A stretch of DNA of 64,000 bases from Candidatus Hydrogenedentota bacterium. Lineage in GTDB: Bacteria; Hydrogenedentota; Hydrogenedentia; Hydrogenedentales; JAGMZX01. How positions within the stretch are numbered: position 1 is the stretch's first letter; the number at the start of each line of letters is the position of its first letter. The position numbers were made by a program, and so were the translations under genes. The stretch spans positions 1-64,000 of the forward strand of contig JAKQEQ010000167.1 of the NCBI GenBank assembly GCA_029556545.1. Reading direction: 5' to 3'. The notes beneath the pieces were generated by a model that made no database searches, had not been told where the DNA came from, and worked only from the letters and a program-made list of their open reading frames with translations. Shown here piece by piece: positions 7,530-13,032 of the stretch.

Positions 7530-7605
7530 TCCGCGATAGCTCAGTAGGTAGAGCGGGTGGCTGTTAACCACTAGGTCGCAGGTTCGAGTCCTGCTCGCGG
7601 AGCCA
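7530..7605 (+). tRNA. tRNA-Asn (GTT)
   Basis: 76-nt cloverleaf with encoded CCA. Acceptor arms TCCGCGA (7530-7536) and TCGCGGA (7595-7601), discriminator G 7602, CCA 7603-7605. Anticodon stem GGTGG/CCACT, loop CTGTTAA, anticodon GTT at 7563-7565. T arm GGTTCGAGTCC. Its 3' 23 bases plus two more are repeated at 13008-13032, marking it as an integration site. Confidence 0.96.
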
Positions 7606-7607
7606 GA
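7583..7607 (+). other. attL: tRNA-Asn 3' end, left copy of a 25-bp direct repeat
   Basis: Bases 7583-7607 (T-arm, acceptor 3' strand, CCA, then GA) are identical to 13008-13032; identity ends at 7608/13033. This is the usual footprint of site-specific integration into a tRNA gene. Confidence 0.85.
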
Positions 7608-7889: not shown

Positions 7890-10826
7890 CTATTTCTCTG
7901 ACGATTCGTCTGCTGGCGACGCTTCTGGGTTGCCGGTTGATGACCGACGGCTACGCGCGCGCCGGCTCTCCGCGAAGGCGTAAATGTCCTTTTCGCCCGA
8001 ACGGAGGAAGTCGAGGAAATCCAAGCCCATGTACTTGCACGTTTCGCAAAGGCTCAACAAGACCAAGTAGTCGCGAATGCCTTTCTCCGTCGTGATTCCT
8101 CCGATGACATGACGAAGCGCTGCGAAGGGTTTGACGGCGTGTTCAGCGTTGTTGTTGTTCCACGGGACCCCATCATAGTTGAGAAACGTGAACAGTTTCT
8201 CTCGGTTCTTTTCCAAACGCTCCTTGAACTTCGCCGCTGTCTCGCTCTGCAGGTCGGTTTCGGAGATTCGCCGGTAGAATCGCTTCACAGATGCCAGGTG
8301 CTTCTTCAGAAAGCGGCACTTCAATCCGTACCGATCAATGGTTTCCACTATCGGCTTGAGCAGAGCCGTAAGAGCTAATGCCAGATCTTTCAGTTCCGCA
8401 TCATAGGGGTGCTTCAGGACATCGTCATTCAAGTCTCGAATCAGGTGGATCAAGCACTTTTGCTGTGGACATCGAATTGAATCGTAGGCCGCATAGAAGT
8501 CGGACACCAAAACGCCCTTGAAATCTTTCAACATGGTCTGCAGCAGGTTGCCCTCTCGCGTTTCGCTATAAACGTATGCCACTTCCTGTATGCTTGCGAA
8601 AATCCACACAAACCCTGAGTTTCCTCGAACACTGGCCTTCGTTTCATCGACGTGAAGCAACCGTCCGCTACACAGCTTCTTCAGAATTGCTTCGTAGGCT
8701 CCTCGATATGTCCTGGCCGCTTGCTCTTTGATGCCGTTGGTCGTTTGCCCAGCCGCCAAATCAAATCCGAATAGCCGATTTAGGCACTGGTCAACATGCC
8801 CCTGCGGAAGCCGCAACTCGATGTTCAGATAGATCGCGAGGGCAATGACGTTGGGGCCAAACTTGCCGCGGCCCCAGGTTTTCTCTTGAGATGTGAAGGT
8901 TGCCCCGCAATTTTGGCATCGGTAGTTCTGGAACTGGTAGCAAGTGATCCATCTCTTCAGACCGTACCGCATGAACTTGAGATCGAATACGGTCTTGCTA
9001 AGCTTGGCGTGCTTGATAACGGTAGCCGCGCCACATTTCGGACAGCACCGAGGTCTGGCACACTCGACCGTTTCATTGGGATGCAATACCCGTTGGGGTT
9101 TGCCACTTTGCCTGACCGCGTGGTTCAACCCCTTGTCAGACTTCACATAGACCCGTTCACGTTGGTAATCCCAGTAAGCAGCGTCGTTGATGGTATGCAA
9201 TTCAGGGAATGCAAATTTGTTTCGCCCAAAACCATGCGGGTACTCCCGCTTCAGCTTTGCCGTGTCAACGATCTCGCCGAGGCGGGAGTCTCCCCCCGGA
9301 GGTGCTCTTTGGCCCAATTCAACAAGCGCATGCGTTAACACATCGAGAGCTTCGCAATCCTCGGTGTTGTAGATGAGCAGCGCCTGTTTAGCTGCAGTCG
9401 CTCTTGTGGTTTCCCACTCTTGTCTCCAGGCAACGGTTTGGATTCCGGTCGCAGTGGGATCAGACCATCGAAACCCCATGTGTCCTGCGACTTCTTTCAG
9501 ACTATTTGAGGGGCAAGGAAAGTAGACCTGGGCGAAGACCACAGACAACAGATTTACGGCAGCTTCGATCGTGGTGGTTGCAGCAGAACTTAAACATCGT
9601 TGTCGGTAGCGCTCACGCATTCGTTTCAGAAAGACCGTCTCGTAACTGCCGTAGTGAATCAGCACCGGTTTCTTCACGGCTTGGAGGATGTCAAGGAATT
9701 CCCGCCAAATCTTCCCTTCGTCCTTGACTGTATCCGCCCACAGGCTGTGCTGGACAGCCGATTCGCCATTGCCAATGCGGACGCCGATGAGGTAGTAGAA
9801 ATCGCGGTCGGGCAGGCCCTCGACATCCAGATAGACTGGCGTGCCTTCGAGCTTCAGTTCCAGAGTGCCTACGATGTGTATCTTCTTCTCCCGAATCGCC
9901 AGCGCCTTGAGCGAGTGGTGATACTTCTCCTTCCTATCCCGCAGCCACTTCGGGCGGCGTCGCGGTCGGAACGTATAGGAGAGCTGGGTGACGGTGGAAA
10001 TGCCATTACTGCGTAGTCTCTGACGCTCCTTCGCGCTCATGCCTCCCAGAAGGCTGAGGTCATCCTGCTCCAGTGCCTTTTGCCGACAGCGGGCCTGGAA
10101 CTCGCACTCAGAGCAGTGCCGGTTCAGAACGAGGTCGGGCGGCGTTGGGCTGGACAGCAGCGCGGCAATCTTCCAGAGGCTTTTCCGCACTTCGCCCGCC
10201 AGAGCCTTGATCTTCACCTTGAGCGTTGCGTGGTCCTCGCCGTGAACGATCTTGCCGACGGCGACTCCACGTCCCAGGGCAGCCGATAGCGCGAAGGCGT
10301 CGTAGGCCAGCAACAGACGGTCGTCCTTTCCCAACTTGTTGGCGAAGAGGAAGCGAATGGGGATGAATTGAACCGCCTTGCCCCTGCCTTCGGCGGGCAC
10401 TCGTTCAGTGGCGTGGAGACGAGTCTCGGCAGTAAAGGCGGTCGCCGTCGCATCCGCTTCGTCCCTAGCGGCAGAGGTGACGCGGCTCTGGTCTGACGGT
10501 TGTGAGTTTAGAGTTGCGGGAGGAACGACAGCGGAATGGGGCGCCTGAAGTCGGCCGCCAAGCGGGAGGTCGGGTGCCGTGACTGCGATGTCCACCGCGA
10601 TATGCCACTTGGCGACTTTCAGGTTATCCGCAGGAGGCGAGAGCTCGGAGTCGGTTGGCGGTTTTCGCGCGAGCAGACGTTTGGTTTCGGCAACGCGGTA
10701 AGACTCATTTTGGATTCTTACCCATTCGGCGTAGGTGTGGCCAGCGGGAGCTTCGTTGGTGGCCCGAAGCCAACACTTGGTCGGACATTTCAGAAAGGCT
10801 TCGAAGAGATGTGCCGTTATTCTCAT
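7890..10826 (-). CDS. RecB-like nuclease / RNase H-like / IS66-type DDE transposase fusion
   Basis: 978 aa, one uninterrupted frame with three modules. Residues 1-250 resemble TM0106-type RecB/Cas4-like nucleases: candidate Fe-S cysteines at 14, 18, 238, 241 and 247, although the catalytic E-x-K strand looks altered (FIPIRFLFANKLGKDD). Residues 330-500 match the RNase_H_2 (DEDD-type) domain: D334-V-E336 and D490 in YNTED. Residues 590-950 are an IS66-type transposase: a four-plus-Cys zinc finger (C594, C595, C598, C637, C640), then DDE D727 (LLHVDETK), D776 (SDFYAAYD), E895 (NNNAEH). A helical insertion lies between the last two, as in IS66. No frameshift or stop marks the junctions. It sits alone at the left of the tRNA-Asn island. 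Function unknown; a nuclease-assisted transposase is an inference. Confidence 0.85.
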   Translation of the reverse strand: MRITAHLFEAFLKCPTKCWLRATNEAPAGHTYAEWVRIQNESYRVAETKRLLARKPPTDSELSPPADNLKVAKWHIAVDIAVTAPDLPLGGRLQAPHSAVVPPATLNSQPSDQSRVTSAARDEADATATAFTAETRLHATERVPAEGRGKAVQFIPIRFLFANKLGKDDRLLLAYDAFALSAALGRGVAVGKIVHGEDHATLKVKIKALAGEVRKSLWKIAALLSSPTPPDLVLNRHCSECEFQARCRQKALEQDDLSLLGGMSAKERQRLRSNGISTVTQLSYTFRPRRRPKWLRDRKEKYHHSLKALAIREKKIHIVGTLELKLEGTPVYLDVEGLPDRDFYYLIGVRIGNGESAVQHSLWADTVKDEGKIWREFLDILQAVKKPVLIHYGSYETVFLKRMRERYRQRCLSSAATTTIEAAVNLLSVVFAQVYFPCPSNSLKEVAGHMGFRWSDPTATGIQTVAWRQEWETTRATAAKQALLIYNTEDCEALDVLTHALVELGQRAPPGGDSRLGEIVDTAKLKREYPHGFGRNKFAFPELHTINDAAYWDYQRERVYVKSDKGLNHAVRQSGKPQRVLHPNETVECARPRCCPKCGAATVIKHAKLSKTVFDLKFMRYGLKRWITCYQFQNYRCQNCGATFTSQEKTWGRGKFGPNVIALAIYLNIELRLPQGHVDQCLNRLFGFDLAAGQTTNGIKEQAARTYRGAYEAILKKLCSGRLLHVDETKASVRGNSGFVWIFASIQEVAYVYSETREGNLLQTMLKDFKGVLVSDFYAAYDSIRCPQQKCLIHLIRDLNDDVLKHPYDAELKDLALALTALLKPIVETIDRYGLKCRFLKKHLASVKRFYRRISETDLQSETAAKFKERLEKNREKLFTFLNYDGVPWNNNNAEHAVKPFAALRHVIGGITTEKGIRDYLVLLSLCETCKYMGLDFLDFLRSGEKDIYAFAESRRARSRRSSTGNPEASPADESSEK

Positions 10827-11022
10827 AAGAAACCAGTATATACCTCAAGATGACATCGACTCCTTACGAATGGTACGCTGTTCATTGACGGACGCAGTCC
10901 CGCCGAACGTACCGCGCGCCCGAATGAGCCCGCAAAGGCGTAGCACGGGTTACGGCGTTCATTGTTGTGTTCGGTTCGTTGGTGCGATGATGTGCAGACC
11001 AGCGACCACGGGTAACATCGAA

Positions 11023-12465
11023 ATGAATGCGACTGAAGTGAAACGATTAACAGCGCTGGGCGAAGATAGCAGCCGCCAGTTCAAGGAAGACGTGCGGAAC
11101 GCCGATTCTTTGGCCGCTGAAATGGTGGCGCTGTCGAACAGCGCCGGCGGCGTCATCCTCATTGGCGTGAAGGATAATGGCATGCCCGTTGGATTGTCTC
11201 CGGCTGACGTTCGCCGGGTGAACCAACTTATCAGCAATGCTGCCACGCAGGGCATGCGCGGTCCGATTGTGCCGCGTACAGAGAACGTTCGCGTTGGCAA
11301 GGAACGCATTGTAGTCGTCTTGACGATCCCGGAAGGGCTGGATAAGCCCTATTTCGACCGCCAAGGCGTCATCTGGGTAAAGGCCGGGCCGGACAAACGG
11401 CGAGTCCAATCCAAAGAAGAGCTTCAAAGGCTCTTTCAAGCGGTTGGGCTTGTCTATGCGGATGAGGTACCAACGGAGGCCGGGATGGAACGAGTGTCAC
11501 GTGAACGCCTTCGGGGATTTGTGTCGGAGGTGTTCGGAGAGGACATTCCCGTCAGCCGGGATGAGTTGGCCCGGCTGTTGGAAAATATGAATCTCGCGCG
11601 TGGCGGGAGACTGAATCTGGCGGGGCTGCTCCTGTTCGGCGAACAGCCCCAGTCGGTGAAGCCCGCGTTTGTGGTCAAAGCCGTCCGCTATCCCGGAAGC
11701 GATATTGCCTCGCACACCTATCTGGACATGGAGGATTTCGAAGGAACGCTCTCGGCTCAGTTTGAAGGGGCGTTGGCATTTATCCTTCGGAGCCTACCCA
11801 AGATTCAACAAGAAGGCCGCAGTATCAACTCTCCCGGCAAACTTCCGATCCCGCGCATTGTGTTTGAGGAACTCCTCGTGAATGCGCTCATCCACCGGGA
11901 CTATTTCATCAACGGCGCTGTTCGCGTGTTTGTCTTCGACGACCGCATCGAGATCATAAGCCCAGGATCGCTCCCGAATCATTTGACTGTGGAGAAGGTC
12001 CGCGCGGGAAACTCGATCCTTCGCAACCCGATCTTGGCATCCTTTTCGGCAAAAGGAGTCTTGCCCTACCGGGGTCTCGGCACGGGCATACGCCGGGTTC
12101 TGAAGGAATGGCCCGCAGTGGATTTGGTCGATGACCGGGAAGCGTGCACCTTTACCGCGCGCGTGAGGCTACCGAAGGAACAGAAAACGCCCGCCGCGGC
12201 CAAGAAGAGAAATAAAGGTGCATCTGAACAAGGACGGAATGCACCTATAAATGCACCTTTATCGGGCGTCTTGAACGAGATTCAAGCGTACATACTTGAA
12301 GTGATTTCGGGCAATCCGCACATCTCCTACGATGAATTGGCGGAACGGCTTTCAAAAGACCGAAGCACGGTGATGCGAAACATCGGCAAGCTCAAAGAGA
12401 GGGGAGCGCTTCGGAGAGTGGGTTCCAAGAAAACCGGTCATTGGCAAGTTGTCAATCCAGACTGA
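11023..12465 (+). CDS. Schlafen AlbA_2-domain ATP-binding transcriptional regulator
   Basis: 480 aa from ATG 11023 (MNATEVKRLT); the frame is open further upstream but without family similarity. The N-terminal AlbA_2/Schlafen domain covers about residues 10-130 (EDSSRQFKEDVRNADSLAAEMVALSNSAGGVILIGVKD). The middle HATPase_c_4-type region contains VFEELLVNALIHRDY and DRIEIISPGSLP. The C-terminal winged helix is at about 415-475 (ISYDELAERLSKDRSTVMRNIGKLKERGALRRVGSK). Such proteins are common on islands and are annotated as ATP-dependent DNA helicase-like or transcriptional regulators. Some Schlafen-type proteins are linked to phage defence, which is not shown here. The 10827-11022 gap holds no clear gene. 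Confidence 0.8.
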   Translation: MNATEVKRLTALGEDSSRQFKEDVRNADSLAAEMVALSNSAGGVILIGVKDNGMPVGLSPADVRRVNQLISNAATQGMRGPIVPRTENVRVGKERIVVVLTIPEGLDKPYFDRQGVIWVKAGPDKRRVQSKEELQRLFQAVGLVYADEVPTEAGMERVSRERLRGFVSEVFGEDIPVSRDELARLLENMNLARGGRLNLAGLLLFGEQPQSVKPAFVVKAVRYPGSDIASHTYLDMEDFEGTLSAQFEGALAFILRSLPKIQQEGRSINSPGKLPIPRIVFEELLVNALIHRDYFINGAVRVFVFDDRIEIISPGSLPNHLTVEKVRAGNSILRNPILASFSAKGVLPYRGLGTGIRRVLKEWPAVDLVDDREACTFTARVRLPKEQKTPAAAKKRNKGASEQGRNAPINAPLSGVLNEIQAYILEVISGNPHISYDELAERLSKDRSTVMRNIGKLKERGALRRVGSKKTGHWQVVNPD

Positions 12466-12471
12466 CCACGG

Positions 12472-12924
12472 TCACACGGTTACGATTCCCGCGGCTCTTT
12501 TTTCCAGATCACGGAACGCCTTGAGCTGTTCCTTTGTTCTTGGGAGACGCGTGATGGAACGTAAACGTCGTTCGCTGAAGAAGGCGATGCTCTTGGGCTC
12601 AGAGACGGAGCACAGATTTCGGATAACGGAATCGGGTAGCTTGAGCAAATTGAGGACTTGAGTGATCCGCGCCCGCGTTAGTCCCACCTTCCGTGCGAGG
12701 TCTGATTGATTGTTAACCTCACCCTCTTCCAGCATTCGTTGGAGCGCAAGAGCAAGTCTCGCGGGGCTTACCGGCGTGGCCTTTTCTGGCTTGTTCGGAG
12801 ACGCAATCGTATATATCACATTGCGGTCAGAGGAGTTACAGAAGACCGGCACGATGTGCCAGCCGGCGGCAATGTTTCGCTGTGTTCGCAATACGGGGAC
12901 CCAGACTGTTCTCGCCACCCGCAT
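12472..12924 (-). CDS. ParB/KorB-type HTH protein, recombinase-partner family
   Basis: Up to 150 aa; start uncertain (ATG 12924 sits in a palindrome CCACCC-GCAT-GGGTGG, and the first 35 or so residues look non-conserved). The core NNQSDLARKVGLTRARITQVLNLL is a clear HTH, followed by LPDSVIRNLC and FSERRLRSITRLPRTKEQLKAF. This layout is familiar from small proteins encoded next to large serine recombinases in mobile elements. Here it ends 6 nt from the convergent Schlafen gene, with no recombinase present, suggesting a remnant. An alternative is a stand-alone ParB-like regulator. Confidence 0.65.
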   Translation of the reverse strand: MRVARTVWVPVLRTQRNIAAGWHIVPVFCNSSDRNVIYTIASPNKPEKATPVSPARLALALQRMLEEGEVNNQSDLARKVGLTRARITQVLNLLKLPDSVIRNLCSVSEPKSIAFFSERRLRSITRLPRTKEQLKAFRDLEKRAAGIVTV

Positions 12925-13007: not shown

Positions 13008-13032
13008 TTCGAGTCCTGCTCGCGGAGCCAGA
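13008..13032 (+). other. attR: partial copy of the tRNA-Asn 3' end
   Basis: Perfect 25-bp copy of 7583-7607. The preceding 12935-13007 sequence is not tRNA, so only the 3' third of the tRNA is present here. Confidence 0.85.

Follow-up and report, generated by a model that had tools for sequence, protein, structure and literature searches.

The locus at positions 7890 to 10826 raises the question of what an apparently intact IS66-type transposase domain is doing at the end of a protein that begins like a nuclease: whether the gene moves itself, is moved by something else, or serves a different purpose. The window, i.e. the whole stretch of 64,000 nucleotides analysed here, contains at this site a single uninterrupted frame of 978 codons (7890..10826, minus strand, read from 10826 to 7890), and the plus strand of the same interval has no comparable frame. 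We consider the best explanation to be, with about even confidence, that the fusion protein is an island-borne, transposase-derived DNA-processing enzyme, which is old, arose once, spread horizontally and travels as cargo in integrative islands that occupy gene 3' ends.

Three modules in one reading frame

The fusion of a RecB/Cas4-like module, a DEDD exonuclease-like module and an IS66 DDE module was computed directly from frame, domain calls and homologues. TIGR03491 (TM0106 RecB-like nuclease) matches residues 4-496 with 179 bits (curated cut-off 97.45) and NF033517 (IS66 transposase) residues 577-942 with 208 bits (cut-off 180), while Pfam places RNase_H_2 at 331-501 (E 1e-18) and DDE_Tnp_IS66 at 654-917 (E 4e-34). 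A preliminary description of this DNA, which gave no strand, had proposed a frame of this length free of stops and shifts, composed of these three modules. The frame is present, the Pfam and TIGR/NF calls agree on the modules, and the HMM search it had suggested recovers both the RecB and the RNase H part (TIGR03491, PF13482). Database records label only one half each time, either as 'TM0106 family RecB-like putative nuclease' or as 'transposase IS66, putative'. The PDB contains no close sequence relative of the fusion protein. The AlphaFold model, computed with 66 family members as input, has a mean pLDDT of 86 and a pTM of 0.58; it consists of well-folded modules with uncertain relative placement, and Foldseek, queried with the complete model, ranks the ISCth4 transposase first (E 2e-7).

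The first module (residues 1-256; 10059..10826, minus strand) has a Cas4/RecB fold according to model, fold match and alignment, and includes a disordered hypervariable insert (residues 92-125; 10452..10553, minus strand) recognised from alignment and model. It superimposes on Cas4 of Cas4-Cas1-Cas2 complexes (7mi4_A) with a Z of 18.8 and an rmsd of 2.7 over 187 residues. In CRISPR adaptation, the role of Cas4 is to shape DNA ends that are to be integrated. The module shares with Cas4 the fold and the cysteine layout, but its scores lie under the cut-offs of the Cas4 models (PF01930, 21.0 versus 22.7; TIGR00372, 14.7 versus 65) and it lacks the catalytic glutamate and lysine; no cas gene occurs among the recurrent neighbours of the family. 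The candidate Fe-S cysteines C238, C241 and C247 are invariant in 66 aligned homologues and C14 is found in 63 of them, whereas C18, which the preliminary description had also named, is present in just 33 of 66 and is not conserved. We infer Fe-S binding, like any catalysis by this protein, from conserved residues only.

The suspicion that the RecB catalytic strand is altered, and that the N-terminal part may only bind DNA, was well founded. All 66 homologues have a proline at position 156 of this strand, the position of the catalytic glutamate is occupied by arginine in 49 of them and otherwise by leucine, isoleucine, valine or serine, and the position of the catalytic lysine never holds a lysine. 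Since the PD-(D/E)xK residues are lost in all 66, module 1 probably binds DNA only, without nuclease activity. The dN/dS values across the modules range from 0.05 to 0.27, taking only pairs with a dS large enough to judge, and these low values therefore argue that the presumably nuclease-dead module has been retained by selection.

The second module (residues 331-501; 9324..9836, minus strand) is DEDD 3'-5' exonuclease-like by Pfam, fold match and alignment. PF13482 scores 68.1 bits at a cut-off of 22, and residues 327-521 resemble the proofreading exonuclease of family-B polymerases with a Z of about 15. The expected acidic residues D334, E336 and D490 are present in 66 of 66 homologues, and the fourth, E396, is always E or D. 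Further downstream, the alignment identifies the zinc finger of the IS66 part (8907..9044, minus strand) as C595, C598, C637 and C640, invariant across the 66 homologues. The third module (residues 654-917; 8076..8867, minus strand), assigned by Pfam, Foldseek and alignment, is the IS66 DDE domain; its triad D727, D776 and E895 is likewise found in every one of the 66, and the W-x-N-N-x-A-E motif is present. The DEDD residues, the zinc finger and the triad had thus been correctly read in advance. The invariance of the triad suggests that strand cutting or transfer is still important.

The closest known arrangement is that of the TM0106/COG2251 proteins (TIGR03491), which begin with the same two modules, arranged alike, and have the C-terminal cysteines and the DEDD motifs. 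However, in non-fused TM0106 relatives (L008, L110, L118) a D-x-K nuclease motif is retained and a helicase-like region with a P-loop follows, whereas the fusion has lost the nuclease motif and ends in an IS66 transposase. COG2251 and IS66 have been described as separate RNase H-like clades (PMC3985635). A literature search for a Cas4-like/exonuclease/IS66 fusion found no description in the papers that are searchable; the parts are known, and it is their stable combination, together with its association with islands and toxin-antitoxin genes, that seems to be undescribed there. The reuse of a transposase seen here is unusual: the gene is no insertion sequence and has long retained an invariant DDE domain in one polypeptide with a Cas4-like module and an exonuclease. 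Moreover, with a Cas4-like fold joined to an integrase-type enzyme, the coupling between end processing and DNA joining can be tested in a single protein.

Distribution and descent of the family

A pattern-based scan of about 85,000 species genomes, all family counts of which are lower bounds, yielded at least 156 related stretches, many of them spanning residues 1 to about 960. The carriers belong to Verrucomicrobiota, Acidobacteriota, Nitrospirota, Planctomycetota, Pseudomonadota, Bacteroidota, Cyanobacteriota and others, and 65 aligned homologues share 34-68% identity with the window protein. Within a phylum the gene is rare: it occurs in 2 of 288 genomes of a one-phylum sample around a verrucomicrobial genome, and one of the two is this centre genome. 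Neither in viral contigs nor in phages were relatives of the family found.

In a quick tree of IS66 proteins, whose long branches leave the finer points unsure, every fusion falls within one supported clade, and the sole 'canonical' row inside this clade (L132) is itself a fusion. A long stem separates the fusion clade from the few canonical IS66 proteins sampled. The phyla are interleaved, and the window protein, which is from the same order as the Candidatus Hydrogenedentes genome G002, stands among proteins of Verrucomicrobiota and Acidobacteriota. One clade with interleaved phyla therefore fits a single fusion event followed by horizontal spread.

The family also contains mosaics. In the pair L088/L091 the dS is 0.31 in module 1 and 0.005 in the IS66 part, and such patterns in the sequences point to recombination between family members. 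L069/L070 are also mosaic, with the opposite pattern as to which half is near-identical and which has diverged.

Islands at the 3' ends of tRNA and other genes

The fusion gene lies 288 bp from a tRNA-Asn(GTT) gene (7530..7605, plus strand; tRNA search), the 3' end of which points toward the island. A repeat search detected a 25-bp att-like direct repeat on the plus strand, with the left copy in the tRNA 3' end (7583..7607) and the right copy at 13008..13032. The two copies enclose a unit of 5.4 kb with three recognisable genes, namely the fusion, a gene for an SLFN_AlbA_2 plus HATPase_c_4 protein (Pfam; 10735..12465, plus strand, start codon uncertain, Pfam domains from about 11062) and a gene for an HTH_ParB-type protein (12475..12924, minus strand; Pfam and similarity to an island gene of G004). 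In having direct repeats of a tRNA 3' end as its borders the unit resembles the tRNA islands of serine and tyrosine recombinases, but neither kind of recombinase is among its genes.

The same tRNA-Asn is used in G004, a genome from the same order, in which a large serine recombinase abuts the tRNA 3' end. An HTH_ParB gene near this recombinase is 43% identical over 44 amino acids to that of the window, and the sequence 3' of the tRNA-Asn is partly alignable between the two genomes. Most simply, the window unit can be read as a serine-recombinase island, or a derivative of one, that has lost its recombinase and holds the fusion as cargo; the link to G004, one relative and a short similarity, is the weakest step of this reading. 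A search for a clean empty site of the unit was unsuccessful: G001 retains the genes left of the island and nothing past 6990, and its tRNA-Asn lies at the contig end. Elsewhere in the window's own genome (contig C183, L196:8540-10207), a second large serine recombinase stands beside a tRNA 3'-end fragment.

Across the family, tRNA 3' ends lie within 3 kb of the fusion at 16 of 79 loci (329 kb of flank), while 771 kb of control DNA gave four such matches, only two of which end in CCA like real tRNAs. Flanking direct repeats were detected at 11 of 63 loci versus 5 of 115 control placements; the control DNA of these comparisons comes from a limited set of genomes, and the placements overlap. The fusion gene thus behaves as cargo of tRNA-type islands, which occupy the 3' ends of tRNA, tmRNA or comM genes.

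The individual units differ in content. Those of L020 and L041 are both bounded by repeats at a tRNA-Gly; the former includes AbiEii and no recognisable recombinase, the latter UPF0175/DUF3368, with a tyrosine integrase just outside. In L070 (1947-5730) a 3.5-kb unit of fusion and HigBA is inserted between comM and mnmA; its ends are 143-bp copies of the comM 3' end with 82% identity, and mnmA remains outside. One MAG has two distinct fusion copies (L025:1-3549 and L046:1-3599), each adjoining tRNA-Glu sequence and enclosed by repeats of the 3' or downstream sequence of tRNA-Glu; the fusion is the sole clear gene inside. The unit of L055 is bigger and includes a tyrosine integrase, and in some relatives such an integrase adjoins the att site. 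The sequence AAAGCAYTTACG follows the tRNA CCA in L014, L020 and L041 alike, as expected of related integrase sites. A tmRNA-like 3' end is near the fusion in L011/L086. The loci differ in where the fusion lies with respect to the tRNA and in which direction it points. The Acaryochloris plasmid pair L123/L129, considered as a possible empty site, proved to have the region replaced, not empty.

From these observations we infer a mode of action. The fusion would usually be the single gene of its kind in an island, sitting at the 3' end of a tRNA, tmRNA or other conserved gene, and adjoining toxin-antitoxin genes would help the genome to retain the unit. Within the protein, the nuclease-dead Cas4-like Fe-S module might hold a DNA end or a junction, 3' ends could be trimmed by the DEDD module, and the IS66 DDE module, directed to its sites by the zinc finger, could cut or join strands. 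The fusion would have been moved by the site-specific recombinase of the island, presumably a large serine recombinase at this tRNA-Asn and tyrosine integrases elsewhere.

Against this view of the fusion as cargo stand the repeat-bounded units that lack a recognisable recombinase: the window, L020, L041, L070, L025 and L046. In these units the fusion itself could act as recombinase. It might then define a new class of compact mobile units (3-5.5 kb), inserted at gene 3' ends and loaded with toxin-antitoxin cargo, whose long direct repeats its exonuclease and DDE modules would jointly make. We regard this as the leading alternative, though an improbable one. The invariant triad and the additional copies of the fusion 3' end described below speak for it, and it stays of interest because several units hold no other recombinase. 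However, serine or tyrosine recombinases occur at or beside the same kinds of site, the placement of the fusion with respect to the tRNA is variable, and loci differ in the left boundary of these additional 3'-end copies. Gene-end repeats of 25-143 bp, moreover, are typical of serine and tyrosine recombinases and not of DDE enzymes.

The toxin-antitoxin context was computed directly as well. In a set of 149 downstream neighbour ORFs, Pfam recognises Gp49/HigB (5), HTH_3 (5), AbiEii (4), DUF6088 (3), DUF5615 (3), MqsA (2), UPF0175 (2) and PIN (2), and none of these families is among those occurring twice in 148 control ORFs. A toxin-antitoxin pair adjoins the fusion at about two dozen of 77 loci, as judged by reading the sequences and not from tool output. 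The islands, the AbiE neighbours and the SLFN_AlbA_2 neighbour in the window might also point to an effector of defence or of action against mobile elements, i.e. a domesticated transposase that serves as a DNA-targeting nuclease and is guarded by toxin-antitoxin genes in islands; the patchy distribution and the nuclease modules would suit such a role. We consider it unlikely and place it next in rank, as PADLOC returned no match of a whole-protein model, only weak Cas4 and DEDDh sub-matches, and the neighbours are mostly toxin-antitoxin genes, not restriction or CRISPR genes.

In one locus (L074:1650-5300) the final ~90 bp of the fusion gene are repeated three more times downstream. Small cassettes lie between the copies: one for a 92-amino-acid protein and an HNH-like protein, one of two small genes, and one with ParDE. 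One extra copy of the fusion 3' end is present in each of L033 and L058; the left boundary of the repeated part is constant among the L074 copies and different in these two loci. Cassettes may therefore attach at the fusion gene's own 3' end. Taken further, the protein would be the active recombinase of compact toxin-antitoxin units of a new class that insert at gene 3' ends; it would combine a nuclease-dead Cas4-like clamp with DEDD and DDE modules in one polypeptide and use the 3' end of its own gene as the point of cassette attachment, a proposal we rate somewhat lower still. In L058, the HNH pair known from L074 and HicAB follow the 3'-end copy, and an Acido-Lenti-1 RNA (RF01687) is located downstream of the fusion at 2805-2850.

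Comparison with insertion sequences

The preliminary description had offered two readings, a transposase with its own end-processing nuclease or a nuclease that captured a transposase; on the first of these, the locus could be an autonomous IS66-type insertion sequence. The likeness to IS66 TnpC (NF033517, PF03050) in DDE triad, W-x-N-N-x-A-E motif and zinc finger is evident, the NF033517 match exceeds the equivalog cut-off, and some genomes have several diverged fusion copies. However, the hallmarks of an insertion sequence are absent, and this absence was again computed directly. A locus-by-locus scan detected terminal inverted repeats accompanied by an intact 8-bp duplication neither at the window copy nor, in general, at its relatives; a weak 14-bp inverted pair (GTTACCTGC..GCC) was seen around the Bacteroidetes copy L091 only. 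The accessory genes tnpA and tnpB are not among the neighbour families that occur twice or more, no such ORF is found beside the window copy, and the N-terminus consists of nuclease-derived modules instead. The window's genome has a single copy. In close gene pairs, the 200 bp outside the gene are mostly unrelated, the exceptions being a common toxin-antitoxin operon or repeats; the comparison of flanking ends, proposed earlier for the detection of target duplications, revealed nothing general. Judged by its ends, the fusion is no IS66 insertion sequence, and autonomous transposition of this kind is very improbable. An assembly or gene-calling artefact that joined separate genes can be practically dismissed, since full-length homologues with the same module order, which the preliminary description had proposed to look for, are present in dozens of unrelated assemblies, and long homologues lie on two finished replicons, a Polaromonas chromosome and an Acaryochloris plasmid.

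REP-like repeats account for the apparent repeats at the loci L021, L039 and L072. An integron-cassette origin of the Bacteroidetes copies, considered for their GTTACCTGC ends and the repeats in L088, was unsupported on inspection of the sequences, and an Rfam search of six loci gave one unrelated match. In these Bacteroidetes copies the homology begins sharply at GTTACCTGC/GTTACAAGC, and in L091 it stops at an inverted GTTACCTGCTGGCC. An AbiE pair is located directly downstream in L088 (4424-9210), L091 (244-4725) and L082 (3712). The REP-like repeats, of ~25 bp, surround the fusion gene in L021 (4920-9100), L039 (2465-3249) and L072 (4845-8578); in L021 they also occur within the variable region of the fusion, and a gene for a REP-associated-type transposase adjoins it.
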